The notes beneath the pieces were generated by a model. The model had not been told where the DNA came from. It ran no database searches and saw only the letters and a list, made by a program, of their open reading frames with translations. This document shows, one piece after another, positions 22,347 through 35,376 of a DNA stretch of 36,894 nucleotides. The translations under genes were made by a program, and so were the position numbers. Positions within the stretch are counted from its first letter, which is position 1, and each line of letters starts with the position of its first letter. Source of the DNA: Rhodospirillaceae bacterium (GTDB lineage Bacteria > Pseudomonadota > Alphaproteobacteria > GCA-2746255); NCBI GenBank assembly GCA_002746255.1, contig NVWO01000002.1, positions 117,773 through 154,666 on the forward strand, given 5' to 3'.

Positions 22347-23543
22347 TTAGCGGCGGAGCTTCGGTTCGCCGAAAAGATAGCCCTGGCCGTAATCGATGCG
22401 ATCTTCCAACAGGTCAACGAGGGTTGCTTCATCCTCGATTTTTTCGACGATCAGATCGATGCCGTTGCGGAAGAAGGCATCCCGAATGGCTTTGATTGCA
22501 TGGGGGTGGCCTTTTTCCCGCTTTTCCGAAAGCAGGGTTTTGATGCCGATCTTGACGAATTTAAATCGCCGCGCGTGCAGCTCGTCCAGATCGAAATTCA
22601 GCGAGGTCACCTTGTCGATGGAGAAACGGAAGCCAAGGCGTGCCAGGCGTTGCAGTTCGCTTGCAATCTCGGGCCGGTGCAGGGGCAGATCGGCCTGGGA
22701 AAATTCGAAAATAAGATGCGGTGCCAGTTCGGAATTTAACTCCATGAAGTCGATAAATTCGCGGAAAAAGGTCTGATCGGCAAGGGTGTGCTTGGAAATG
22801 TTGATGAAGAAACCTGTGCGCGCCTGATTGCGCTGGGCGCGAACGATCTGGACACAGCGGAACAAGAGCAGATTGTCGATGGGCGTGATCAGCCCTTCCT
22901 TTTCGGCGACGTCCAGGTAGCGGTCGGGGGTGATGAAAGAACCGTCATCGGCCCGGATGCGAGAAAAAGCCTCGTAGAATTTTACCTGACGCGTCGGCAG
23001 GCCGACGATGGGCTGCAGGAAGAGATCAATCCGGTCACGGCGTAGCGCGTCCTGCACCAGATCGAGCATGGCTTCGGGTCGCATGTTCGACGCGGCGGCG
23101 GCCATGCTGGCCTGTGCGGGTGCGGCGGTTGCTTTCTTGGGCTTCGGTTCGGCTTTGCCCTTTGGCACCTTTGAGAGCTGTTCGACAAGCTTTTGCAGGA
23201 CGCGGACTTCGGCGACGATGTCCCCCATCTTTTGCGGGGACCTGCCCTGGCCGTCTGCGACAAGGGCCTGGATACGCCGGGCATCTTTCTGTACCCGGGT
23301 CACTTTTTTCTCCAATGCATCGCTCCGCTTCTCGATGGCGGTGAATTGGCGGGTCATCGTTGCGTCGCGCTCAAAGCGGGCGAAAATTTCATGGAGAAGG
23401 GCGGACGCACCCAGGACCAGCGCGGCGATGATCCGCGCATCGCTATTGGCAAGGTTTGAAAACCCAAGGGGAAGGGTCACGGCCAAGGCTGCCGCGAATG
23501 TCGTGTAGATCAGCGCGATAAGAAGATGTCGAAGCACAGTCAT
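22347..23543 (-). CDS. Membrane-anchored EAL-domain protein, probably degenerate
   Basis: A 398-residue protein with two N-terminal hydrophobic spans (about 5-28 and 38-52), a helical region with coiled-coil character (about 60-135), a Lys/Pro/Ala-rich linker and a C-terminal EAL domain (about 155-398). Active EAL phosphodiesterases cleave c-di-GMP. Here the signature is EAF in place of EAL. Asn (FFINIS), Glu (IFEFSQ), Lys (VKIGIK), Glu (VEKIED) and QGYLFGEP remain, but the metal-binding DDFGTG loop reads DKVTSLN, so the second Asp is lost. It is more likely a c-di-GMP binder or protein-interaction module than an efficient enzyme. No GGDEF domain is present. A moderate promoter lies upstream. 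Confidence 0.85.
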   Translation of the reverse strand: MTVLRHLLIALIYTTFAAALAVTLPLGFSNLANSDARIIAALVLGASALLHEIFARFERDATMTRQFTAIEKRSDALEKKVTRVQKDARRIQALVADGQGRSPQKMGDIVAEVRVLQKLVEQLSKVPKGKAEPKPKKATAAPAQASMAAAASNMRPEAMLDLVQDALRRDRIDLFLQPIVGLPTRQVKFYEAFSRIRADDGSFITPDRYLDVAEKEGLITPIDNLLLFRCVQIVRAQRNQARTGFFINISKHTLADQTFFREFIDFMELNSELAPHLIFEFSQADLPLHRPEIASELQRLARLGFRFSIDKVTSLNFDLDELHARRFKFVKIGIKTLLSEKREKGHPHAIKAIRDAFFRNGIDLIVEKIEDEATLVDLLEDRIDYGQGYLFGEPKLRR

Positions 23544-23657: not shown

Positions 23658-24791
23658 TTATGGGCCGTCCCGCAAATCCCATTTTTCCAACGCTGTCTTG
23701 GCATCCGTTTCCCGCCATTCCCGGCGTGTCGCTGGGGCGGCGTCATTGGCTCGGGCGGGGAACAGAATTTCCGTGAAGGCTTCGCCGTCCTGTTGCGCGC
23801 GTTGCAGGAACCCGCGGCTGTGCAAATGGGGATGCGTGACCAGCCCGGTGGTGCTGACAATCGCCTGAAAGCAGCAATCGACGTCGCCAAGGGTTTTCAG
23901 CCATTCGGCCAGTGTGGCGGTGGCGAATTTTTCCCGCAAGGCTGCGATCAGGTCCGTTTGAGGGATTGCTTCGCCCTGGCGGTGAATCCAGTCCGGCTGG
24001 CCGACGGCTTCGCAGAAATTCTTCCAGAATTTTTCTTCGATGCAGCCAAGGGTGACAAACGCGCCGTCTTTTGTCTCATAGATTTGGTAATAGGCGGCAC
24101 CGCCGTTCAATTCATGGCCGGTCCGGGAAATGTCCGCGCCATCGGCTTCCGCCACTGCCAGCGACAGGCGCTGCCAGGGCAGGACGGATTCGGCGATGCT
24201 GATGTCCAGAAAAACGCCGCGTCCGGAATTTGTACGCTCAAGCAGGGCCGCCAGCATGGCCATGGCGGCGTGAAGCGCGGCGGCGTGATCGGCGACAGGG
24301 GGGAAGGAAAACCCCGGCCTTTCCGCGCTGCCTGACGTGGCCAGCCCGCCTGCCAACGCCATGTAATTCAAATCGTGGCCGGGCGTGGATGCAAGGGGCC
24401 CGTCCTGGCCATAGCCGGTCAGCGCGCAATGGATGAGGCGGGGATTGAGGGCGTTGATGCGTTCGCGTGGAAAACCAAGACGGGTCAGCACGTCGGGACG
24501 AAAAGATTCAAGCAGCACGTCGGCCTGTTTTAACAGGCGCTCGAAACTTGCCTTGCCAGCCGCACTTTTCAAATCAAGGCGAAGGGTCGTCTTGTTACGG
24601 TTGCAGGCCTTGTAAATGCGCGAGATGCCATCGGGTCCAAGGGGCGGCATCCCACGCATCGGATCGCCAAGGGGTGGCTCAATTTTCAGAACATCGGCAC
24701 CAAAATCGGCGAGCGTTAGTGTGGCAAGCGGTCCTGGAAGGTATTGGGACAGGTCAAGGACACGGGTTCCGGCAAGGGCGTTAAACAGCAT
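23658..24791 (-). CDS. CaiB/BaiF family CoA transferase
   Basis: Family III CoA transferase (377 residues), which moves CoA between carboxylic acids through an aspartyl-CoA thioester intermediate. The N-terminus LAGTRVLDLSQYLPGPLATLTLADFGADVLKIEPP is classic. The catalytic Asp is Asp140 in GHDLNYMALAGGL. RNKTTLRLDLK, SFRPDVLTRLG and DISIAESVLPW also fit; some members act as racemases (alpha-methylacyl-CoA racemase), which cannot be excluded. Last gene of the tetR-led operon; its first 11 bases overlap the end of the thioesterase gene. In this context it could activate the pathway acid with a donor such as succinyl-CoA, or epimerise a methyl-branched acyl-CoA; this is inference. Confidence 0.88.
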   Translation of the reverse strand: MLFNALAGTRVLDLSQYLPGPLATLTLADFGADVLKIEPPLGDPMRGMPPLGPDGISRIYKACNRNKTTLRLDLKSAAGKASFERLLKQADVLLESFRPDVLTRLGFPRERINALNPRLIHCALTGYGQDGPLASTPGHDLNYMALAGGLATSGSAERPGFSFPPVADHAAALHAAMAMLAALLERTNSGRGVFLDISIAESVLPWQRLSLAVAEADGADISRTGHELNGGAAYYQIYETKDGAFVTLGCIEEKFWKNFCEAVGQPDWIHRQGEAIPQTDLIAALREKFATATLAEWLKTLGDVDCCFQAIVSTTGLVTHPHLHSRGFLQRAQQDGEAFTEILFPARANDAAPATRREWRETDAKTALEKWDLRDGP

Positions 24792-25191
24792 GGCTCTTGC
24801 GATAAAGCCGGAAGACGCCGTTGGCGGTGGCCATCAGCTTCCCGCCCTCGGGGCCTTTGTACAAATTGACCGAGGCGTGGCCGATGGTCTTGCCTGCAAA
24901 ATCGATGCGGCTGACGGCGGTAATCAGGCCTTCGGAGATGGTATCGAGGTAACGAACCGACAATTCGATCGTGACGGTGCGTTCGACGTCCTCAATCAGG
25001 TCAAAGAAGGCGTTTCCCGCCGCCGCATCAAGCAGGGTGGCGACGGCACCGCCATGAATTCTATTGCGCGAGCCCAAATGCTGTTCCCCGACCATCAATT
25101 CAAGGACAACACCGTTTTCGTGCCGACCGACATGTTCATAGCCGACAAGGGCCTGAAAAGGGCTGCGGGATTTGGCGTCCTTGGTTTCCAT
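24781..25191 (-). CDS. PaaI-type hotdog thioesterase
   Basis: Acyl-CoA thioesterase of the 4HBT/PaaI group, 136 residues from the ATG at 25191. The core is NRIHGGAVATLLDAAAGNA, with the HGG turn and the catalytic-type Asp, then VTIELSVRYLD and GKTIGHASVNLYK. An in-frame upstream start at 25272 would run 27 codons into the SDR gene and was rejected. Only 4 bases separate it from the SDR stop, and its end overlaps the CoA transferase start, so all three are likely coupled. It probably releases dead-end acyl-CoAs to save CoA in this pathway; the substrate is not predictable. Confidence 0.85.
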   Translation of the reverse strand: METKDAKSRSPFQALVGYEHVGRHENGVVLELMVGEQHLGSRNRIHGGAVATLLDAAAGNAFFDLIEDVERTVTIELSVRYLDTISEGLITAVSRIDFAGKTIGHASVNLYKGPEGGKLMATANGVFRLYRKSHAV

Positions 25192-25195
25192 GGGT

Positions 25196-26074
25196 TCAGT
25201 CTTCAAGCTTGTAATAATCGGGCTTGCCGGCGGGCCAACATTCCCCCCACAGGCGTTGGCCGGCATCCACATGGACTACATCGCCGGTGATGAACTTGCC
25301 GCTTTCGGCAGCCAGGAAAACAACCGCCTGGGCAACGTCGTGCATGTCGCCGGGGTGTTTCTGGACATTGGCATGGCTGAAGCTTGCGACGCCTTCTTTC
25401 GGATATTGGCGAAAGCCCGGGGTCGAGATGGTGCCCGGCGCAACGCAATTGACGCGAATGCCATAAGGCGCCCATTCGACGGCCATGGACTTTGCCAAAT
25501 TTTCGACGGCGGCTCGTGCCGCGCCGGTGTGGGCAATGCCCGGCATGCCACGGTCGTGGACGGCGATGATGTTGATAATATTTCCCTGCTGTTTTTTGTC
25601 GCGCCAGCGCCGCGCCGCGCGTTGCATCATGTACCAGGTGCCGTTCAGATTCGTATCGACGACCGCCTTCCAGCCCTTGTCTGAAAATTCGATCGCTTCT
25701 TGGGGGAACTGGCCACCGGCGTTGTTGACCAGAACGTCGAGGCGGCCAAAGCGTTCCCAAATTCCATCCATCAGGTTTTCGACCTGGTCCGGGTCGCGAA
25801 TGGACATCAATTGCATGTGCACCTTGGCGCCAAGGGATTCGAAAAATCTGGCGGCGGAGGTAACGCGTTCCTCGTCGCGCCCGCAAATGGCCAGCGTCGC
25901 CCCAAGGCGGGCAAAAAGCGCCGCAATGCTGCGCCCAAGGCCGCTTCCGGCGCCGGAAACCAGCACCACCTTGTCCTTGAAAAGGTCGTTCCGGTACACG
26001 GTCGGCGCGTTGCGCAGGTCCTCGTCGGACTGGCCGATGCGCCAGACATTTGGATCCGATGGTTCTTTCGGCAC
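25196..26074 (-). CDS. Short-chain dehydrogenase/reductase, PECR-like
   Basis: NAD(P)-dependent oxidoreductase of 292 residues. It has the Rossmann motif VSGAGSGLGRSIA (about 39-51), NNAGGQFPQ, the NLNGTWYM segment and a C-terminal AGQRLWGE. The usual YxxxK active site is replaced: the segment reads IAHTGAARAAVENL, so the expected Tyr is Thr and the Lys is Arg. HxGAARA is what I recall of peroxisomal trans-2-enoyl-CoA reductase (PECR) and related dienoyl-CoA reductases, so an enoyl-CoA reductase is plausible. SDRs of similar overall look also occur in acyclic-terpene (atu) clusters as citronellol/citronellal dehydrogenases; that alternative is open. Located between the dehydrogenase (18-base gap) and the thioesterase (4-base gap). 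Confidence 0.85.
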   Translation of the reverse strand: MPKEPSDPNVWRIGQSDEDLRNAPTVYRNDLFKDKVVLVSGAGSGLGRSIAALFARLGATLAICGRDEERVTSAARFFESLGAKVHMQLMSIRDPDQVENLMDGIWERFGRLDVLVNNAGGQFPQEAIEFSDKGWKAVVDTNLNGTWYMMQRAARRWRDKKQQGNIINIIAVHDRGMPGIAHTGAARAAVENLAKSMAVEWAPYGIRVNCVAPGTISTPGFRQYPKEGVASFSHANVQKHPGDMHDVAQAVVFLAAESGKFITGDVVHVDAGQRLWGECWPAGKPDYYKLED

Positions 26075-26092: not shown

Positions 26093-27244
26093 TTAATTCG
26101 TTGCCATTCGCTTTGCGACTTCTTCCAGCATGACTTCCGTCGCGCCGCCGCCGATTGACAGGATGCGAACGTCGCGGAACATGCGTTCGATCGGCGTTTC
26201 GCGAAGATAGCCGGCGCCACCGTGAAATTGCTGGCAGGCGTACAGCACTTCATTTGCAAGCTCGCCGCAAAAGGCTTTCACCATCGAGACTTCTTTGATG
26301 CAGTCGCGCCCCTGGGCGTCCAGCCATGCGGCGTGGTAGACAAGCTGGCGTCCGGCTTCGACTTTGCCGGCCAGTTCGGCAAGTTTCTGGCGGATGGCTT
26401 GTAAGTCGAACAGCACGCCGCCAAAGGCCTTGCGCGTGGTGACGTAATCGAGGGTCAGTTCCAGCGCCTTGTCGCAGGCACCGATGGACATGCCGCCAAG
26501 GACGATGCGTTCGTTCTGAAAATTTTTCATGATGGCGTAGAAGCCTTTGTTTTCCTCGCCGAGAAGGTTTTCGACCGGCACGCGGCAGTCTTCGAAGATC
26601 AGTTCGGCAGTGTCGGAGCACAGCCAGCCCTGTTTCTTCAGGGCGCGTCCGGCGCGAAAGCCCGGCGTTCCCTTTTCGACGATAAACATTGAAATGCCGC
26701 GCGACCCTTTCGCGCTTGGGTCCGTTCGCGCGGCCACAAAGAAAAGGTCGGCGTGGATCCCGTTGGTGATGAACATCTTCGTTCCGTTCAGGACGTAATC
26801 GTTGCCTTCGCGCACGGCGCGCATGCGCAGGCCGGCGACATCGGACCCGGCGTCCGGTTCCGTCACGGCGATGGCCGTAATCCATTCGCCCGTCGTAATT
26901 TTCGGCATGTATTTCGCCATCTGCGCCGCATTGCCGGCGTTGGCCAGATGGGGCGAGCCCATGTCTGTGTGCACCAGAACGGTGGCCGTAAAGCCGCCGA
27001 AGGTGCAGCGGCCAAGTTCTTCGGCAAGAACGGTGGTGGCAAGGGTGTCGAGGTCGGCACCGCCATGTTTTTCGGGGTAAGTGAGGCCGAAAAAGCCAAG
27101 GGCGCCCATCTTGTGGAGTGTCTCGCGGGGGACCATGCCGTCTTCTTCCCACTGCTCGCCAAAGGGTTCGACTTCTTCCACCAGGAAGCGGCGAATTTGC
27201 TCGCGGAAAAGGTCGAGTTCTTCGGTGGCGTAGATGGATTCCAT
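26093..27244 (-). CDS. Acyl-CoA dehydrogenase
   Basis: FAD-dependent alpha,beta-dehydrogenase of acyl-CoA thioesters that passes electrons to ETF; 383 residues. Features are the helical N-terminus, ITAIAVTEPDAGSDVAGLRMRA (flavin/substrate signature), TKMFITNG, and the C-terminal QQFHGGAGYLRETPIERMFRDVRILSIGGGATEVM. The usual C-terminal catalytic Glu (in YEGT) is Gly here (IGGGATEV). A Glu is instead present at residue 245 in NERIVLGG, where isovaleryl-CoA and long-chain acyl-CoA dehydrogenases keep their base. This fits a branched-chain or long-chain substrate. It follows the biotin carboxylase after 21 bases. Confidence 0.92.
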   Translation of the reverse strand: MESIYATEELDLFREQIRRFLVEEVEPFGEQWEEDGMVPRETLHKMGALGFFGLTYPEKHGGADLDTLATTVLAEELGRCTFGGFTATVLVHTDMGSPHLANAGNAAQMAKYMPKITTGEWITAIAVTEPDAGSDVAGLRMRAVREGNDYVLNGTKMFITNGIHADLFFVAARTDPSAKGSRGISMFIVEKGTPGFRAGRALKKQGWLCSDTAELIFEDCRVPVENLLGEENKGFYAIMKNFQNERIVLGGMSIGACDKALELTLDYVTTRKAFGGVLFDLQAIRQKLAELAGKVEAGRQLVYHAAWLDAQGRDCIKEVSMVKAFCGELANEVLYACQQFHGGAGYLRETPIERMFRDVRILSIGGGATEVMLEEVAKRMATN

Positions 27245-27265: not shown

Positions 27266-29278
27266 TTATTCGGCTATTTTTTCTTCGGGGCCGATCTCGA
27301 CGAGGGGGGCTTTGTGCGCGACGGTGGCACCCTGTTTGCAATGGACGTCTTCGACGATGCCATCTGTTTCGGCGACCAGATTGTGGACCAGCTTCATGGC
27401 TTCCATGACAACCAGAACGTCACCCGTTTTTACGCGGTCCCCCTTCGTGATGGAAAGGGCCGTGATCAGCCCCGGCATGGGCGCGTAAAGGGTGTGGTGG
27501 GTTGTTTGCGGGGCGCTGGCGCTCTGTTCGGCGGCAAGGTGGGATTCCAGCGTGAAGACGGTGTTGTGACCATCGCCGGCGATGACGATTTGATCTTCGG
27601 TAATAACGGCGCGAAATTCGTGCCGTTCGCCATCCATCCACAGACATATTCGATTGTCGGGCAGCCGTTTGGCGCGGACATCGACGCTTTGCTCGCCCCG
27701 GGTGACGTAATAATTGCCGTCATGGCCGGCGATTTTGACGTCTTCGGCCGCGTCCTGGCGTTGCAGGCGCAGATGGGTCACGCCGGGGTTGATGCTTTGG
27801 TCCATCACCCGCCAGGGGCCAAGGGATTGCCAGGGGGACGCGGCGTTTGTGCCGGGCTCCGGTGCGCCGGTTTCCACATGCAGCACATAGGCAATGCCGG
27901 CCAGAACTGCGTCTGCCTCTGCCGGGGCCTCTTTCCAGCCATCGGGAAAGCTTTCGACCAGAAACCGGGTCGTCAGGGGTCGTTCCGAAAAATTCGGATG
28001 CGCCAGCACGTCGCCCAGAAAGGCGATGTTCGTCGTCACCCCGGCCAGGGCGTAATTGGCAAGGGCGGCGATTAAACGCTGGCGGGCCTCCTCGCGGTCT
28101 TTGCCATGGGCAATCACCTTGGCCAGCATCGGGTCGTACCAGGGCATGACCTCGCTGCCTGCGGCAACGCCGCTATCGACGCGCACGCCGTCGCCTTGGG
28201 GTTCGTCATAGAGATACACCGGGCCGATCTCGGGGCGGAAATTATCGGCCGGGGCTTCGGCGTTTATGCGCGCCTCAATCGCCCAGCCGGAAACGGCAAG
28301 GTCGCTTTGTGCGAAGGGGATAGCGTCGCCCGTGGCGATCCCGATCTGTAATGCGACAAGGTCCAGGCCGGTGATCATTTCCGTCACCGGATGTTCGACC
28401 TGAAGGCGCGTGTTCATTTCCAGGAAATAGGCTTCGCCGGTGTCCTCGTCATAAAGAAATTCGATCGTGCCGAGGGAATCATAGCCAATGGCCTTGGTGA
28501 TACGAATGGCGTAATCGAAAAGCGCCGCGCGCATTTTTTCGTCCAGAAAACCTGCCGGGGCTTCTTCGATGATTTTCTGATGGCGGCGCTGGATGGAACA
28601 TTCCCGTTCGAACAGGTGAACGACGTTTCCATGCTTATCGCCGGCGACCTGCACTTCAATGTGGCGCGGGTTGAGGATTGCTTTTTCCAGCAGGATGGTT
28701 TCGTCACCAAAGGCGGCTTTTGCTTCCTGGCGTGCGAGCGACAGGGTTTCCAGAAAGGTTTTTTCGTCTTCAACCAGGCGCATGCCCTTGCCGCCGCCAC
28801 CGGCCGAGGCCTTGATGAAAACCGGGAAGCCGATACGCTTTGCCGCTTTTTGCAACGTGGCACCGTCCTGGGTTCCGTAATGGCCGGGGACGACCGGGAC
28901 CCCGGCTTCCTCGGCGATTTTCTTCGCTTCGACCTTCGACCCCATTTTTTGTATGACGTCGGCCTTCGGCCCGACGAAGCCGATGTTCGCCTCCGCGCAG
29001 GCCTGGGCCAGGGCGGGGCTTTCGGCCAGAAAGCCATAGCCGGGATGGATGGCGTCCGCGTTCGCCCGCTTTGCCGCTTTTAGAATAGCGTCGATGTTGA
29101 GATAGCTGGCCGCCGCTTCCTTAGGGCCGATGCAATAGGCTTTGTCGGCAAGGCGCACGTGGAGTGCGTCGGCGTCGGCCTCGGAATAGGTGACGGCGGT
29201 GCGAATGCCAAGCTTTTGACAAGTCTTCAGGATGCGAACGGCAATTTCGCCCCGGTTGGCGATCAGCAGGCATTTCAT
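27266..29278 (-). CDS. Acyl-CoA carboxylase biotin carboxylase/BCCP subunit (MCC/GCC/PCC type)
   Basis: Alpha subunit (670 residues) of a biotin-dependent acyl-CoA carboxylase. Residues 1-450 form biotin carboxylase: start KCLLIANRGEIAVRI, ATP-grasp loop KASAGGGGKGM, HIEVQVAGD, ERECSIQRRHQKIIEE, EMNTRLQVEHPVTEM. After a bridging domain, the C-terminal BCCP domain has the biotin Lys629 in MEAMKL; Leu replaces the usual Met after the Lys, a variation known in MCC-type proteins. The ATG at 29278 has AAGGA 9 bases upstream and overlaps the hydratase stop as ATGA; a GTG 7 codons upstream is less likely. The partner is the carboxyltransferase at 30-31.7 kb. The dehydrogenase and hydratase neighbours favour a 3-methylcrotonyl- or geranyl-CoA-like substrate over propionyl-CoA. 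Confidence 0.9.
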   Translation of the reverse strand: MKCLLIANRGEIAVRILKTCQKLGIRTAVTYSEADADALHVRLADKAYCIGPKEAAASYLNIDAILKAAKRANADAIHPGYGFLAESPALAQACAEANIGFVGPKADVIQKMGSKVEAKKIAEEAGVPVVPGHYGTQDGATLQKAAKRIGFPVFIKASAGGGGKGMRLVEDEKTFLETLSLARQEAKAAFGDETILLEKAILNPRHIEVQVAGDKHGNVVHLFERECSIQRRHQKIIEEAPAGFLDEKMRAALFDYAIRITKAIGYDSLGTIEFLYDEDTGEAYFLEMNTRLQVEHPVTEMITGLDLVALQIGIATGDAIPFAQSDLAVSGWAIEARINAEAPADNFRPEIGPVYLYDEPQGDGVRVDSGVAAGSEVMPWYDPMLAKVIAHGKDREEARQRLIAALANYALAGVTTNIAFLGDVLAHPNFSERPLTTRFLVESFPDGWKEAPAEADAVLAGIAYVLHVETGAPEPGTNAASPWQSLGPWRVMDQSINPGVTHLRLQRQDAAEDVKIAGHDGNYYVTRGEQSVDVRAKRLPDNRICLWMDGERHEFRAVITEDQIVIAGDGHNTVFTLESHLAAEQSASAPQTTHHTLYAPMPGLITALSITKGDRVKTGDVLVVMEAMKLVHNLVAETDGIVEDVHCKQGATVAHKAPLVEIGPEEKIAE

Positions 29279-30072
29279 TGTTTTTTTCCTTTTCGCCACC
29301 AGGGGGCCTGTTTGTTCAGGAAGGCGGCAATTCCTTGCTGGCCCTCCTCGGTTTCCCAGGCATCGGCAAGCGCGTTCAGCGTGTAATCGCGGTTTTCTTT
29401 ATGGTCGTGCGCGGCCACGAAATGGACCAGCCGTTTTGTCGCGGCAATCGCGCCCGGCGCGGCCTGTAAAAATTCCGCGACCTCTTTTTCGATCGCCGCG
29501 TCCAGATCTTCCGGGGCCACCACCTGGCTTAGAAGGTTCAGCCCATGGGCTTCCTCGGCGGAGAAAAGCCGGCCGCTGAAAAAAACCGTGCGTGCATTTC
29601 CTGGGCCCATCCGCCGTACGACATAGGGCGAAATGGTCGCCGGTATAAGGCCGAGGCGCACTTCCGTCAGGCCAAAGCGGGCGGTGTTGACGCCGATGGC
29701 AAGGTCGCAGACGGACATCATGCCCGTGCCGCCGCCATAGGCGGACCCGTTGATCCGCCCGATCACGGGTTTTGGCAGGCTGTCCAATTCGTAAAGCATG
29801 TCGGCAAGTTCACCGGCCTCCTTGATGCGGCCTTTGCGCGTCATGGCGGCATTGGCCTCCATCCAGCGCAAATCGCCACCGGCACAGAAACTTTTTCCCT
29901 CGCCCGTCAACACGACGACACGGATTTTCTGGTCCCCGGCGATGTTGCGTACCGCGTCCCGCATTTCGGCGATCAGCGCTTTGTTCATTGCGTTGTGAAC
30001 GTCCGGGCGTGCAAGCGTCACCTGGCAGACGCCACGGTCGTCGGTTGCAACTTTGAGCGTTTCGTAAACCAT
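29275..30072 (-). CDS. Enoyl-CoA hydratase, methylglutaconyl-CoA hydratase-like
   Basis: Crotonase-fold protein, 265 residues. The oxyanion region reads SFCAGGDLRWME and the second GSAYGGGTGMMSVCDLAI. Classic crotonases have two catalytic Glu; here the first position is Gly (YGGGTG) and only the second is present (LTEVRLGLIPATISPYV). That single-Glu pattern with the IPATISPYVV stretch is what I know from 3-methylglutaconyl-CoA and isohexenylglutaconyl-CoA hydratases (LiuC, AtuE). This agrees with its place between the two carboxylase subunits, where it would hydrate the carboxylated enoyl-CoA. Gaps: 6 bases after the carboxyltransferase, 4-base overlap with the biotin carboxylase. Confidence 0.88.
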   Translation of the reverse strand: MVYETLKVATDDRGVCQVTLARPDVHNAMNKALIAEMRDAVRNIAGDQKIRVVVLTGEGKSFCAGGDLRWMEANAAMTRKGRIKEAGELADMLYELDSLPKPVIGRINGSAYGGGTGMMSVCDLAIGVNTARFGLTEVRLGLIPATISPYVVRRMGPGNARTVFFSGRLFSAEEAHGLNLLSQVVAPEDLDAAIEKEVAEFLQAAPGAIAATKRLVHFVAAHDHKENRDYTLNALADAWETEEGQQGIAAFLNKQAPWWRKGKKQ

Positions 30073-30078
30073 GTTCTC

Positions 30079-31680
30079 TTACATCCGGTAGACGGGGTGA
30101 TAGCCCGTCTCGGGTTCAAGCGCGTCGCCAAGGGCCAGGCACAGGCCCAGCGTGTCGCGCGTCTTCGTCGGTTCGATCAGGCCGTCGTCCCAGACCCGCG
30201 CCGTGATGTGATAGGGGTCGCCCTGTTTGGCATAAAGCGCCTGGGTGCGTTCGGCGATGTCATCCAGTTCCTTCTGAGTCACCTTGCCGCCGCCGATGCC
30301 TGCTTTTTTGACTTCCGTCATGACGACGACGGCGGTGTCGCCGGCCATCGTCGCGATGTAGGACGTGGGCCAGGTGAACAGGAAGTTCGGCATCAGGCCT
30401 GCGCCGCACATTCCGTAATTTCCGGCACCGCAGGAATTGCTGACGATGACGGAATATTTCGGCACGCGCGCATTGGCGACGGCGTAAACAAGCTTCGAGC
30501 TGTGTTTCGCGATGCCACCTTCCTCGGCCTCCCGGCCAACGATAAAGCCGGTGACGTTGTGCAGGAACAGCAATGGAATGTTCCGCTGACAGCATTTTTC
30601 AATGAAATGGGCGCCCTTTAGCGCGCAATCGGCAAACAGGATGCCGTTGTTGGCGAGGATGCCGACGGGATAGCCGTGCAGATGGGCAATCCCGCAAATC
30701 AGTTCTTCGCCGAAATGCGGTTTGAAGTCCTCAAAGTCGCTGTCGTCCACCAGGCGGGCAATGACTTCGTACATGTCAAAACCTTTTTTGCGGTCCTTCG
30801 GCACGATGCCAAGCAATTCGTCTGCCGGATAACGTGGCGGCTTCGTGGGCTGCTTTTTTGCATGGGCCGGCCGCGTCCAGTTCAGTCGGGCGATGGTGGC
30901 GCGCAATTTCCCCAGGGCTTCCGGTTCGCTGTCGGCAAAATCGTCGGAAACGCCGGAAACCCGTGTGTGCATGTCGGCGCCGCCCAGGGCTTCCGGATCG
31001 ACGATTTCTTTGATGGCCGCTTTCACAATCGGCGGGCCACCCAGAAAAATGCGGCCCGATCCCCGGACCATGACGACATAATCGCAAAGAACCGGAATGT
31101 ACGCGCCGCCCGCCGTCGAACCACCGAAGACGGCGGCAAGCTGCGTCAGCCCCTGGCCGGACAGGCGGGCCTGCAAATAGAAGGTATGGCCGAAATGCCG
31201 CGGGCCCGAGAAGACTTCGTCCTGATGGGGCAGGAAGGCGCCGCCGCTGTCGACAAGGTAGATGACCGGCAATTTGTTCTGCAACGCAATTTCCTGGGCG
31301 CGGATATGTTTTGTCACCGTTTCCGGGAAGAAGGTGCCGCCTTTGACGGTGGGGTCATTGGCAATGATGACGCAGGGCGTTCCGGCAACGATGCCGATGC
31401 CGGTGACGATGGTCGCACCCTGGGCGGCGTTGTCGTATTTTCCCCAGGCGGCGAGGGTTGAAAGTTCCAGAAAAGGCGTGTGGGGATCAATCAGCATGTT
31501 GATCCGCTCGCGGGGAAGAAATTTATTGCGCGAACGGTTGCGCGCGATCTGGCGATCGCGGCCGCCATCAACGGCGTGCGCCTGGCGTTCGCGAAGGGTT
31601 TGAATCCTTTCCTCATAGAACGCCTTGTTTTCCAGGAAGGCTTCCGAGGCTGTGTCGATTTTTGATGCAATCAATGCCAT
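30079..31680 (-). CDS. Acyl-CoA carboxylase carboxyltransferase subunit (MCC/GCC type)
   Basis: Beta subunit of the biotin-dependent carboxylase, 533 residues, two crotonase-like halves. Landmarks are IANDPTVKGGTFFPETVTKHIRAQ, LPVIYLVDSGGAFLPHQDEVF, FGGSTAGGAYIPVL, GRIFLGGPPIVKAA, LGGADMHTRVSGVSDDFA, GFIVGREAEEGGIAKHSSKLVYAVANARVP, and SCGAGNYGMCGAGLMPNF. The layout matches 3-methylcrotonyl-CoA and geranyl-CoA carboxylase beta subunits rather than propionyl-CoA carboxylase. The segment following the first half (SGPRHFGHTFYLQARLSGQGL) differs from the textbook MCC versions I recall, so the substrate is left open. First catabolic gene after tetR (70-base gap), with only a weak GGAAA site before the ATG. 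Confidence 0.9.
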   Translation of the reverse strand: MALIASKIDTASEAFLENKAFYEERIQTLRERQAHAVDGGRDRQIARNRSRNKFLPRERINMLIDPHTPFLELSTLAAWGKYDNAAQGATIVTGIGIVAGTPCVIIANDPTVKGGTFFPETVTKHIRAQEIALQNKLPVIYLVDSGGAFLPHQDEVFSGPRHFGHTFYLQARLSGQGLTQLAAVFGGSTAGGAYIPVLCDYVVMVRGSGRIFLGGPPIVKAAIKEIVDPEALGGADMHTRVSGVSDDFADSEPEALGKLRATIARLNWTRPAHAKKQPTKPPRYPADELLGIVPKDRKKGFDMYEVIARLVDDSDFEDFKPHFGEELICGIAHLHGYPVGILANNGILFADCALKGAHFIEKCCQRNIPLLFLHNVTGFIVGREAEEGGIAKHSSKLVYAVANARVPKYSVIVSNSCGAGNYGMCGAGLMPNFLFTWPTSYIATMAGDTAVVVMTEVKKAGIGGGKVTQKELDDIAERTQALYAKQGDPYHITARVWDDGLIEPTKTRDTLGLCLALGDALEPETGYHPVYRM

Positions 31681-31750
31681 TCGCTTTTCCGTCGTCGGGT
31701 CTGTTGCGGGGGCGCCCGGAGAGGGCTGGGTGGATCTTGCATTTGCGTTG

Positions 31751-32374
31751 TCATCCCGTTCCCGCTGGCTGAATGCCGTTCATGAGGATGTCTGTATACG
31801 CCTCGGCAAGGGTCTCGATCTTCTCCCGGCCAGGTTGGTACCATTCGATTGTCCAGTTCATGGCACCGAAAACAAGGGCCTGCAAGGCTGTTAGATTGAT
31901 GTTGCCCCGGACCGCGCCGGCTTTTTGCGCGCGGTGGTACAAATCGGCCCAGTAATCTTCATAGGCCCGGCGAATTTTCATGTGACGGTTGCGAATGTGT
32001 TCGGGGGCCTGGCTAAAGACGCGAACATTTGCTGACATGTAATCGCCGTGCTGAACAAGCGAAGCCAGGTGGGCCCCTATGGCGACGTGAAAACGCTCGC
32101 GCCAGGAGGCGTTTTCGGCCATGTTTTCGACCTTGTGGCGAACGTCTTTAAAGACGGCTTCGATGCCGATGTCGAGGACCGCTTCGAGAATCTGTTCCTT
32201 TGAATCAAAATGGTAATAGACGCTGCCGGCCTTCATGCCGACGGCGCTGGCGATGTCGCGCAGCGTCGTTGCGTAATAGCCCTTCTGGCGGAAAAGCGCC
32301 GCGGCGGCGCCCAGTATTTCCTGCCGCGAGATGGCGGATTTGCGGGCCGGGCTGGGGGCAGCGGTTGCCATCAT
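31751..32374 (-). CDS. TetR/AcrR family transcriptional regulator
   Basis: Repressor-type regulator, 207 residues. The N-terminal helix-turn-helix domain (about residues 15-62) reads RQEILGAAAALFRQKGYYATTLRDIASAVGMKAGSVYYHFDSKEQIL, a textbook TetR pattern. The C-terminal ligand domain is helical with aromatic residues (MNWTIEWYQPG), similar to regulators of acyl-CoA catabolism. Two adjacent ATGs (32374, 32371) could start it. It heads the leftward operon and is divergent from badI. A palindrome over its own predicted -10 box suggests autorepression and joint control of both arms. The inducer is probably a pathway acyl-CoA (inference). Confidence 0.92.
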   Translation of the reverse strand: MMATAAPSPARKSAISRQEILGAAAALFRQKGYYATTLRDIASAVGMKAGSVYYHFDSKEQILEAVLDIGIEAVFKDVRHKVENMAENASWRERFHVAIGAHLASLVQHGDYMSANVRVFSQAPEHIRNRHMKIRRAYEDYWADLYHRAQKAGAVRGNINLTALQALVFGAMNWTIEWYQPGREKIETLAEAYTDILMNGIQPAGTG

Positions 32375-32402
32375 TTTTGTTTGCTTTTCACTTTTTTTCT
32401 AA

Positions 32403-32416
32403 CTAGCATTAGCTAG
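32403..32416. promoter_or_regulatory. Palindromic operator candidate between tetR and badI
   Basis: CTAGC (32403-32407), spacer ATTA, GCTAG (32412-32416): perfect 5-bp arms. It is 29 bases upstream of the tetR start and covers the predicted -10 box of tetR. Size and position are typical for TetR-family operators. I saw no second copy elsewhere in the window. Confidence 0.6.
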
Positions 32417-32439
32417 GCTTTTGCGCGCGGGCCTGTCAA
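32410..32439 (-). promoter_or_regulatory. Predicted promoter of the tetR operon
   Basis: On the minus strand a perfect -35 TTGACA (32439-32434), 18-base spacer and TAGCTA (32415-32410). The -10 is poor, but it overlaps the palindrome, which fits a repressed promoter. No clear promoter was seen in the 70 bases between tetR and the carboxyltransferase, so one transcript may cover all eight genes. Confidence 0.45.
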
Positions 32440-32560
32440 GCTTACCGTTCTGCATTTGATAAAAAAACAGCTGAAAAACTGGCTTTTTTGGCGATTTATC
32501 GTGGCGGTTATGCTGGCGGTGCTGGTGCAATTAGAACAAGGACGGGGAAGGGCAGCCATT

Positions 32561-33343
32561 ATGGCCTATGAAGACATTCTCTACGAAGTAAAAGAAGGCG
32601 TTGCGCGGATTACCATCAACCGCCCGGACAAAATGAACGCGTTTCGGGCGCAGACCGTAGACGAACTTTTGGACGCCTTTGCGGATGCCAGCTGGAACCG
32701 TGACGTCGGTGTCATTGTGCTCGCCGGGGCGGGCGACCGCGCGTTCTGTACCGGCGGCGACCAGTCGGGTCATAGCGGCAGTTACGGGGCCAAGGGCACG
32801 CTCGGCATGCAGATCGAACAATTGCAGGCGGCGATCCGCCTCGCGCCGCAGCCGGTTATCGCCCGGGTTCAGGGGTACGCCATCGGCGGTGGCAACGTAC
32901 TTGCCCTGCTGTGCGATTTAACGATTGCTTCGGACAAGGCGCAATTCGGCCAGGTGGGGCCGAAGGTGGGTTCTGTCGATCCCGGCTATGGGACCGCCTA
33001 TCTTGCCCGGGCCGTTGGCGAGAAGAAGGCGCGTGAAATCTGGTATCTTTGTCGGCGCTACAAGGCCGATGAGGCCTGCGCGATGGGCCTGGCAAACGTT
33101 GTTGTACCCCATGACAAGCTGGATGAAGAGGTTGCCACGTGGTGCACCGAGATTCTGGAAAAAAGCCCAACGGCCCTTGCCATTGCCAAGCGATCCTTTA
33201 ATGCCGATACGGACCACATCGGCGGCATTGGCAATCTGGGCATGCAGGCGCTTGCCCTTTACTACGATACCGATGAATCCCGCGAGGGCGTGAATGCGTT
33301 TATGGAAAAGCGCAAGCCTGATTTCCGCAAATTCGTTAAGTAA
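32561..33343 (+). CDS. badI: 2-ketocyclohexanecarboxyl-CoA hydrolase-like protein (BadI/MenB group)
   Basis: Crotonase-fold enzyme, 260 residues. BadI of Rhodopseudomonas palustris opens the ring of 2-ketocyclohexanecarboxyl-CoA to give pimelyl-CoA in cyclohexanecarboxylate and anaerobic benzoate breakdown. The sequence tracks BadI as I recall it nearly throughout: INRPDKMNAFR, LAGAGDRAFCTGGDQSGH, VQGYAIGGGN, FGQVGPKVGSVDPGYG, EKKAREIWYLCRRY, and the ending YYDTDESREGVNA with EKRKPDFRKF. The last segment and KMNAFR separate it from MenB. The ATG at 32561 follows a GGGAAGGG stretch; an in-frame TTG at 32456 would add an unlikely hydrophobic leader. It is followed by the acyl-CoA synthetase and is divergent from tetR. 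No badH or aliA/aliB genes accompany it, so the true substrate may differ. Confidence 0.82.
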   Translation: MAYEDILYEVKEGVARITINRPDKMNAFRAQTVDELLDAFADASWNRDVGVIVLAGAGDRAFCTGGDQSGHSGSYGAKGTLGMQIEQLQAAIRLAPQPVIARVQGYAIGGGNVLALLCDLTIASDKAQFGQVGPKVGSVDPGYGTAYLARAVGEKKAREIWYLCRRYKADEACAMGLANVVVPHDKLDEEVATWCTEILEKSPTALAIAKRSFNADTDHIGGIGNLGMQALALYYDTDESREGVNAFMEKRKPDFRKFVK

Positions 33344-33392
33344 CGTTGCGGATGCTGTGAAATCAGAAGTAACGCGGACGCGGTGAAACCAG
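33338..33392. repeat. Imperfect tandem duplication across the badI stop
   Basis: Two adjacent copies, 33338-33366 (29 bases) and 33367-33392 (26 bases). Both begin AAGTAAC and continue with GCGGAtGC or GCGGAcGC, then a GTGAAAxCAG end. The second lacks three bases and has a few changes. The first copy contains the TAA stop of badI, so the end of the gene was duplicated into the gap before the synthetase. Confidence 0.6.
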
Positions 33393-33402
33393 GGGAAGGG
33401 CG

Positions 33403-35376
33403 ATGGCAGAGGGGAAAATTCCAACCGGAGAAATTCTCTGGCGCCCTTCGCCCGAGATTAAAGAGAAAAGCAATTTGACGGCGTTTCTCCGTAGCGAGAA
33501 TCTGCCCGATTTTGCTGCCCTGCTTGACCGTTCGAACGCGGACCCGGAATGGTTCTGGAATGCGTTGATCCGCCATTACGACATCCGCTTTTACAAACCC
33601 TATGAACGTGTTCTCGATACTTCGGACGGGATCGAATGGGCGCGCTGGTGCGTCGGTGGCACGACAAATGTCGTGTTGAACGCGCTGGACCGTCACCGCG
33701 ATACGTCGATCTGGCAGAAGGACGCTGTTGTCTGGGAAGCCGAAGACGGCAAGCAGCGCAAATGGACCTTCGCGGAATATGACGCAGAGGTCTCGCGCCT
33801 TGCAGCCGGCTTGAAAAAGCTGGGCATTGGCAAGGGGGATGCCGTCGGCCTCTTCATGCCGATGGTACCGGAAGTTGCCGCTGCGTTTCTTGCCGTCGCC
33901 AAGATCGGCGGCATTGTCGTGCCGCTTTTCTCCGGTTTTGGAAAGCAGGCAATCGCCGTGCGCCTGAACGATTGTGAGGCGAAAGCAGTTATCACGGTGG
34001 ACGCGGCCATCCGTCGCGGCAAACGCGTGCCGATGAAAGCCACCCTTGACGAGGCCCTTGATGATACGCCCTCCGTTCACAGTGTCGTCGTTCTGAAACA
34101 GTTCGACGAGACGGTTCCGTGGAATGCGGCACGCGACCATTGGTGGTCGGAACTGACAGCCGACATGCCGACGGATTTGCCGACAGAGGTCATGGACGCT
34201 GAAGCGCCCTTCATGGTTGTTTATACGTCCGGCACGACGGGCAAGCCGAAGGGGACGGTGCATTCCCATTGTGGTTTTCTGACAAAGGTCATTGCCGATT
34301 TTGTGCTCTGTCAGGATTTCAAACAAAGCGACCGCATTCTCTGGATCAGCGACATGGGTTGGGTGGTTGGTCCCCTTGAGGTGCTGCTGGCAGGGTTTGC
34401 CGGTGCGACGATGGTGCTGGTGGAAGGCACGCCGGATTACCCGGACAAGGGCCGCATCTGGCGCCTGGTTCAGGACCACAAGGCAAGTTTTCTCGGCATC
34501 GCGCCGACGATCGTTCGTATCTTTATGGCCCATGGCGCGGAATTTGCCGAACAATATGATCTTTCTTCCCTGCGCATCACGGTCTCGACCGGCGAGCCGT
34601 GGACGCCGGATTCCTGGCGGTGGTTTTTCCACCACATCTGCAAGGAAAAAGTGCCGATCCTGAATATTTGCGGCGGCACCGAAATTGGCGGCGCGATCAT
34701 CGGCAGCATTGTGACGCTGCCCTTAAAGCCCTGTTCTTTCAACGCGCCGATGCCGGCGATGGGGGCCGATGTCGTGGACGACGCGGGCAAGGCAATCATG
34801 CCCGGCCAGGTCGGCGAACTGGTGTTGCGTCTGCCCTCTATCGGATTGTCACGGGGCTTGTGGAAGGACGCGGATCGCTACATCGAAACCTATTGGAGCA
34901 CCTTCCCCAATCTTTGGCGCCAGGGCGACTGGGCGGCCATCGACGAAGACGGCATGTGGTACATCCTGGGCCGTTCGGACGACACGTTAAAAGTTGCGGG
35001 CAAGCGGACAGGCCCGGCCGAGATCGAAGGCGTCATTCTTGAGACTGGCCTGGTTGCCGAGGCCGCCGCCGTCGGCGTGCCGGATGAAATCAAGGGGTCG
35101 GTCGTCGTTTGCGTTTGCGTGCCGGCTGTGGGCGAAACAGCGGACGAGGCCCTGAAGAAAAAAGTTTCCGACGCGGTTGTCGGCGGTCATGGCAAGGCCT
35201 TTCTGCCGAAAGACATTGTCTTCGTCGCCGACCTTCCCAAGACCCGGTCCATGAAAATCATGCGCCGCGTTGTGCGCGCCGCCTATCTTGGGATCGACCC
35301 CGGCGATCTGTCATCCCTGGTCAACCCGGACACGCTGGTGGAATTGCGTGCGAAGGCCGGCGGGGAAGGCGTGTAA
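33403..35376 (+). CDS. Acyl-CoA synthetase (AMP-forming, acetyl-CoA synthetase-like)
   Basis: Activates a carboxylic acid to its CoA thioester via an acyl-adenylate; 657 residues. The N-terminal region WFWNALIRHYDIRFYKPYERVLDTSDG resembles the acetyl-CoA synthetase N-domain. The ATP loop YTSGTTGKPKG is at residues 274-284, GGTEIGG is the A5-type motif, YILGRSDDTLKVAGKRTGPAEIE holds the hinge, and the catalytic Lys618 lies in KTRSMKIMRR (Met replaces the Gly normally before the Lys). The length and N-domain point to the ACS/propionyl-CoA synthetase branch, but sequence does not reveal the acid used; AliA-type ligases are about 100 residues shorter. A GGGGAAGGG stretch precedes the ATG. It lies 59 bases after badI on the same strand and is likely co-transcribed, providing the entry step. 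Confidence 0.9.
   Translation: MAEGKIPTGEILWRPSPEIKEKSNLTAFLRSENLPDFAALLDRSNADPEWFWNALIRHYDIRFYKPYERVLDTSDGIEWARWCVGGTTNVVLNALDRHRDTSIWQKDAVVWEAEDGKQRKWTFAEYDAEVSRLAAGLKKLGIGKGDAVGLFMPMVPEVAAAFLAVAKIGGIVVPLFSGFGKQAIAVRLNDCEAKAVITVDAAIRRGKRVPMKATLDEALDDTPSVHSVVVLKQFDETVPWNAARDHWWSELTADMPTDLPTEVMDAEAPFMVVYTSGTTGKPKGTVHSHCGFLTKVIADFVLCQDFKQSDRILWISDMGWVVGPLEVLLAGFAGATMVLVEGTPDYPDKGRIWRLVQDHKASFLGIAPTIVRIFMAHGAEFAEQYDLSSLRITVSTGEPWTPDSWRWFFHHICKEKVPILNICGGTEIGGAIIGSIVTLPLKPCSFNAPMPAMGADVVDDAGKAIMPGQVGELVLRLPSIGLSRGLWKDADRYIETYWSTFPNLWRQGDWAAIDEDGMWYILGRSDDTLKVAGKRTGPAEIEGVILETGLVAEAAAVGVPDEIKGSVVVCVCVPAVGETADEALKKKVSDAVVGGHGKAFLPKDIVFVADLPKTRSMKIMRRVVRAAYLGIDPGDLSSLVNPDTLVELRAKAGGEGV

Follow-up and report, generated by a model that had tools for sequence, protein, structure and literature searches.

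Several repressors of acyl-CoA and ring catabolism have been described that resemble parts of the locus analyzed here. BkaR (Rv2506/MSMEG_4718) is a TetR repressor of the accA1-accD1 carboxylase operon for branched-chain acids (PMC3920632). BadR, a MarR-type repressor of the bad-ali genes, recognizes the operator CAAN4TTG and responds to cyclohexanecarboxyl-CoA; according to the same paper, bad-ali clusters contain a badR gene of the MarR type in Gram-negative bacteria and a TetR-like gene in Gram-positive ones (PMC9795900). TetR-like genes are also carried by the Rhodococcus chcpca cluster (badI-badH-aliA-aliB) (PMC5906575), and in Caenibius tardaugens the TetR repressor EdcR controls an estrogen ring-degradation cluster (PMC8700777).

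In the present locus, which lies in a 36,894-nucleotide stretch of alphaproteobacterial DNA (henceforth termed the window), a badI-like gene faces a tetR gene, unlike the MarR pattern stated for Gram-negative bacteria (PMC9795900). As in the BadR system, a repressor gene is located near badI and aliB genes, and the CoA-ester effector is a property described for BadR (PMC9795900); BadR is, however, a MarR protein, whereas the regulator beside the bad genes here is a TetR. The window contains six matches to CAAN4TTG, none of them in the tetR-badI gap (32375-32560), and a BadR site in the gap was rejected for this reason. BkaR is the nearest functional parallel: an autoregulated TetR with a divergent gap and a palindromic operator that has further copies elsewhere, and with a regulon that likewise contains an acyl-CoA carboxylase, a dehydrogenase and a hydratase (PMC3920632). 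The half-sites of its core, GTTA(N)T(N4)A(N)TAAC, are opposed to those of the site found here, CTAAC-N4-ATTAG, and a BkaR-type motif was ruled out for the window site because the half-sites face the other way. The BkaR promoter region has two motif copies, and BadI goes unmentioned in the accessible part of that paper (PMC3920632). EdcR shares the role of a ring-degradation TetR repressor and has a palindrome overlapping a -10 box, but its proposed operator, TnnCnnTACnAnTnGTAnnGnnA, is different (PMC8700777). The Rhodococcus chcpca cluster, likened here by gene neighbourhood, encodes an aerobic pathway for alicyclic acids and has its TetR-like genes next to homologues of badI and aliB; it is Gram-positive, and the word "operator" is absent from the main text of its description (PMC5906575). 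Among solved structures, KstR2 and Mce3R (mycobacterial TetR repressors according to their PDB titles) are among the best matches by sequence, behind 'Transcriptional regulator I2' (4mxm, 4mo7) and some unnamed TetR proteins; with E-values of about 3e-16 and 4e-18 only, this likeness is one of protein sequence.

The tetR gene (31751-32374, minus strand) encodes a regulator of 207 aa that matches PF00440 with 67.9 bits (cut-off 24) and PF17932 above its cut-off. Across a gap of 186 bp, badI begins divergently with an ATG at 32561 (32561-33343, plus strand); its 260-aa product is a BadI-like ring-opening hydrolase that scores 456.4 bits against TIGR03210 (454.7-457.7 bits across genus members), below the cut-off of 467.6. 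An acyl-CoA synthetase gene follows 59 bp after badI (33403-35376, plus strand), with acetate--CoA ligases as best models, all below cut-off. On the minus strand, the next gene after tetR encodes an acyl-CoA carboxylase carboxyltransferase subunit (30079-31680, PF01039), and profile matches identify an enoyl-CoA hydratase (29275-30072), a biotin carboxylase/carrier (27266-29299), an acyl-CoA dehydrogenase (26093-27244) and an SDR (25196-26074) behind it. The pathway resembles bad/ali-type ring degradation that feeds into a biotin carboxylase. The equivalog level of BadH is missed (best score 216.6 bits in this genome and 232.5 bits in the genus; cut-off 431.2), and since BadI, AliB and BadH all score near or below their equivalog cut-offs in the genus, the substrate may be a related alicyclic acid and not cyclohexane carboxylate itself. 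Two further frames accompany these genes: a small 4HBT thioesterase frame (24781-25272, minus strand) overlaps the SDR and CoA-transferase genes of the operon, and an EAL-domain protein is encoded behind the CoA-transferase gene, where the run of catabolic genes ends (22347-23543, minus strand).

A preliminary description of this DNA had drawn attention to a perfect palindrome in the tetR-badI gap, CTAGC-ATTA-GCTAG (CTAGCATTAGCTAG), and had placed it on the -10 box of a tetR promoter with a perfect TTGACA. The palindrome, of 5-4-5 geometry, is indeed perfect at 32403-32416, where it forms the single CTAGC-N(0-12)-GCTAG of the window, and CTAGCNNNNGCTAG occurs once in the 2.1-Mb genome, as compared with eight matches of a reversed control pattern. 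TTGACA is exact as well (32439-32434 on the minus strand) and, as the -35-like element of a putative tetR promoter, lies 17 bp before the CTAG of a conserved block (see below) in all four genus members. The -10 assignment did not survive: at a distance of 16-19 bp from TTGACA, the hexamers agree with TATAAT in one or two of six positions (CTAGCT, at 17 bp, in one), and GCTAAT reaches four of six but requires a 20-bp spacer, so that no convincing -10 can be named. A sigma-70 promoter scan of 31000-34500 listed no promoter in the tetR-badI gap, and a search of the gap for a good sigma-70 -10 was negative for both arms. Towards badI there is a weak candidate promoter, TTGCTT-17 bp-TAGCAT (32381-32409, plus strand; 3/6 and 4/6 matches), whose TAGCAT lies inside the predicted operator. 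Its candidate -35 (GCAAA on the tetR strand) is invariant in the four genus members and keeps its spacing in three of them, the exception being G001 with a 12-bp insertion. Several orthologues likewise have a TTGC at 17-18 bp from this place, although its nearness to the tetR start codon, and not a promoter role, may be the reason for its conservation.

Palindromy alone was dropped as evidence because shuffled gaps yield similar counts: the gap contains three inverted repeats (spacer 0-10), a number reached in 23% of mononucleotide shuffles (mean 1.6), and the window holds 82 perfect 5-bp-arm repeats with 4-bp spacing. A scan of the window with CTAAYNNNNRTTAG returned no second operator and no other match below two mismatches. 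As a separate observation on composition, CTAG is strongly under-represented in the window (positions 1-36894), with 15 copies where base composition predicts about 134; two of the 15 sit in the reported palindrome.

The conservation expected of the palindrome in homologous gaps is present within the genus, for which four members were found (the genome of the window, G001, G002 and G003). All four share an identical block of 22 consecutive invariant bases (32397-32418; GCCTAGCTAATGCTAGTTAGAA on the tetR strand) in a gap alignment with a mean column identity of 57%. The block contains the reported palindrome and a second, overlapping dyad. As the TetR proteins of the other members share 64-72% identity with the one encoded in the window, we read the invariance as selection and not as recent descent; judged from these alignments, it is conservation, not palindromy, that exceeds chance. 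Upstream of tetR in G001 (L005 / L127), a tandem TAGTTAGAA with a 12-bp period is located at the tetR-proximal end of the block.

To identify the symmetry shared with other lineages, tetR orthologues were gathered from named genomes and from class- and phylum-wide samples, in which TetR matches at E<=1e-35 occurred in 33/385 and 13/398 genomes (own genome counted). The upstream scan covered 90 loci (L001, L003-L048, L124-L166), from which 12 duplicates and the four genus members were removed; L049-L095 (47 loci, at most 34% identical except for L048-like fragments above that) lay outside it. Counts refer to the 52 orthologues with at least 170 bits and at least 200 bases upstream, among which related species remain, so that they are not fully independent, and 20 relatives at 120-170 bits were counted apart. 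Because starts were set by homology, a site may go unnoticed where the protein has a long N-terminus. The pattern CTAAY-N4-RTTAG occurs within about 250 bp upstream in perfect form in 14 of the 52 non-genus orthologues and, when one mismatch is allowed, in 26, as compared with a mean of 0.6 (maximum 2; none perfect) in 60 dinucleotide shuffles. In the window it corresponds to a dyad at 32399-32412, CTAAC-TAGC-ATTAG (CTAAT-GCTA-GTTAG on the tetR strand), which overlaps the reported palindrome at a distance of 4 bp and represents the predicted core operator. CTAGC-N4-GCTAG was perfect in none of the 52 upstream regions and had at most one mismatch in a single one (L028), which is equally close to both patterns. 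The other 26 orthologues, including L040 (best match with two mismatches), gave no CTAAY-N4-RTTAG at one mismatch or fewer in the scanned stretch; among the 20 more distant relatives, two carry the dyad at this level and none perfectly.

An unbiased count of every palindrome with a 5-bp arm and a spacer of 0-12 (13,312 types) led to the same pattern. CTAAC-N4 ranks first (19/52 at <=1 mismatch), ranks two and three go to this dyad in frames shifted outwards (TCTAA-N6 and TTCTA-N8), and CTAGC-N4 ranks 3056, among ties. Many non-genus sites extend to TTCTAAY-N4-RTTAGAA, and the HTH region is conserved across the 14 aligned TetR orthologues. A table of symmetry by centre for the 28 non-genus sites (>=120 bits) is circular for shift 0, since the sites were picked by that very pattern, and we relied on the orthologue counts and the palindrome ranking instead. 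By these measures, the symmetry shared by the orthologues is CTAAY-N4-RTTAG and not CTAGC-N4-GCTAG. Conservation beside orthologous tetR genes is thus seen for the overlapping dyad, whereas the perfect CTAGC form was found in the genus only.

The preliminary description had also linked badI and the synthetase to the carboxylase operon as one regulon. Recurrence of the predicted operator supports this link and points to a regulon larger than the one proposed, with copies at further catabolic genes. When the four genus genomes were scanned with CTAAYNNNNGTTAG at <=1 mismatch, CTTACGTTAGTTAG was found in all of them; raw counts fall well short of those of the reversed control, with 18 matches on both strands against 274 in the window's own genome. 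The pattern CTWAYGNTAGTTAGAW matches without mismatch only at the tetR gap (4/4 genomes), at a second site (4/4) and at a third site in G002, with four more matches at two mismatches across the genus; as CTWAYGNTAGTTAGAW was written from genus sites, the zero-mismatch count shows the rarity of the site and is not an independent discovery. In all four genomes, the second site fronts an acyl-CoA dehydrogenase pair, and its alignment shows an invariant CTTACGTTAGTTAG with the CTAGC arm absent. The AliB-like member of the pair scores 563.2 bits in the window's genome, 565.1 in G001, 573.7 in G002 and 576.3 in G003, which alone passes the cyclohexanecarboxyl-CoA dehydrogenase cut-off of 575.35. A 677-aa-type oxidoreductase gene starts on the other side of the second site in G001-G003; in the window's genome, a 472-aa frame without Pfam match (L118, 11549-12967, minus strand) is located between this gene and the operator. 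The third site precedes an SDR and a thiolase gene: the best NCBIfam model of the SDR is BadH (about 232 bits, far below the cut-off of 431.2), and the thiolase exceeds the cut-off of the 3-oxoadipyl-CoA thiolase model. Around the BadH-like genes of the other three members, the fetched loci (3777 bases each) contained no operator.

Beyond the genus, an 18-bp form of the motif was matched in 10 of 14 genomes searched. G266, which belongs to the same class but another family, has nine sites at <=1 mismatch against eight for the reversed pattern, and the raw number is thus not above control. The sites differ in their neighbours: a regulon homologue starts within 400 bp and reads away at seven of the nine sites versus none of the eight controls, and a homologue lies within 1 kb in any direction at eight of nine versus one of eight. 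These sites include a carboxyltransferase gene, an SDR gene, a tetR/synthetase gap and the gap between a 677-aa-type oxidoreductase and an AliB-like gene; another lies at a BadH-like gene (360.6 bits, cut-off 431.2). Outside G266, nine genomes contain 19 sites, nine of them at tetR; beside the other ten (five genomes), no regulon homologue starts by our reading. At L040, a Cycloclasticus locus, genes for AliB (590.8 bits) and BadI (478 bits), both above cut-off, lie behind that of the TetR orthologue and on its strand.

Sequence, conservation, recurrence and gene neighbours are direct observations, from which we infer binding, repression, ligand and promoter positions. We consider it probable that 32399-32412 is the operator of the adjacent TetR, blocking both divergent arms and the dehydrogenase pair until a pathway CoA ester releases it. 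A TetR dimer would recognize CTAAY-N4-RTTAG rather than the CTAGC palindrome itself and, sitting immediately behind the tetR -35, would cover the start region of the tetR promoter. Bound in this position, it would repress tetR and the genes that follow it (carboxyltransferase, hydratase, biotin carboxylase, dehydrogenase and SDR) and, on the plus strand, would also block the badI and synthetase genes. A block of the badI arm is proposed because the gap is only 186 bp long and a candidate -10 of the opposite strand lies inside the operator. The earlier suggestion of one repressor for both arms divides: an operator-like site for a TetR does lie in the divergent gap, whereas control of badI is suggested by its position, a weak candidate promoter and similar arrangements elsewhere. 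About 17 kb away, at C2:167113-167128, the same operator would control the acyl-CoA dehydrogenase pair, at whose promoter it abuts, by our reading, a -35-like TTGAAA. The inducer would probably be a CoA ester of the pathway, by analogy with BadR.

This assignment has to be weighed against other readings of the same bases. In the genus, the site might be compound, with two 5-4-5 dyads that overlap at a centre distance of 4 bp and take two dimers or two binding registers. Both dyads have the same geometry and are invariant in the genus, and a CTA lies 4 bp left of the dyad in 5/28 non-genus sites, with a mirror-image TAG in 4/28 (0-3 at other offsets). We nevertheless regard this reading as unlikely: the left CTA is missing in 23/28 non-genus sites, the second genus-wide site does without the CTAGC arm, and conservation of the left flank may instead reflect a promoter role. 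The absence of that arm from the second site also speaks against the CTAGC palindrome itself as the operator, as do its rank of 3056 and its near-absence outside the genus (0/52 perfect, with the ambiguous L028 as the one near match). Even with perfect arms, invariance in four of four genus members and a symmetry (5/5 pairs) exceeding that of the local CTAAT-GCTA-GTTAG dyad (4/5), this palindrome is quite unlikely to be what the regulator recognizes.

It is very unlikely that the block is kept mainly as a core promoter, while the regulator binds at another place or controls just one of the arms. The fixed distance of 17 bp to TTGACA in all genus members and the position of the block over the likely start region would fit such a role, but at other promoters the motif lies, by our reading, beside the -35 instead, and distant orthologues show other spacings. 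That the palindrome arose by chance and is without function is hardly credible, however common perfect 5-4-5 repeats are in the window and in shuffled gaps, in view of 22 invariant bases across orthologues of 64-72% identity and the cross-family recurrence of the overlapping dyad. Conservation opposes chance for the whole block; at most, chance could explain the CTAGC symmetry in itself. The site is most likely an autoregulated TetR operator over a bad/ali-like plus carboxylase regulon and, as far as sequence can tell, a real element of an ordinary kind, with a corrected core and a larger regulon than proposed.

Among the papers listed by a literature search, with subscription journals mostly outside its reach, none was recognized as a description of this operator or TetR clade. 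We tentatively suggest that an undescribed TetR clade from Alphaproteobacteria, Gammaproteobacteria and Acidimicrobiia, with the operator (TT)CTAAY-N4-RTTAG(AA), may have replaced the MarR protein BadR as master repressor of carboxylase-coupled BadI/AliB-type ring degradation in some Proteobacteria, with a compound two-dyad version at its own promoter in the genus. The clade's operator motif unites the scattered carboxylase operon, badI, the dehydrogenase pair and the BadH-like gene of relatives as one testable regulon, and it suggests a TetR solution in Gram-negative bacteria, for which a MarR repressor was described. It also illustrates how an eye-catching perfect palindrome can be peculiar to a genus and adjoin the symmetry that its relatives have in common.

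Among the TetR genes encountered, some appear to be double. In G266, a single 443-aa frame with two consecutive TetR matches is located at 1569-2900 on the minus strand of L199 (G266:C1:527000-532500), and double TetR matches also occur in G342, in frames of 445 and 448 aa. The fused protein of L199 resembles Mce3R, which is seemingly double as well, with two stretches matched in a 406-aa chain.
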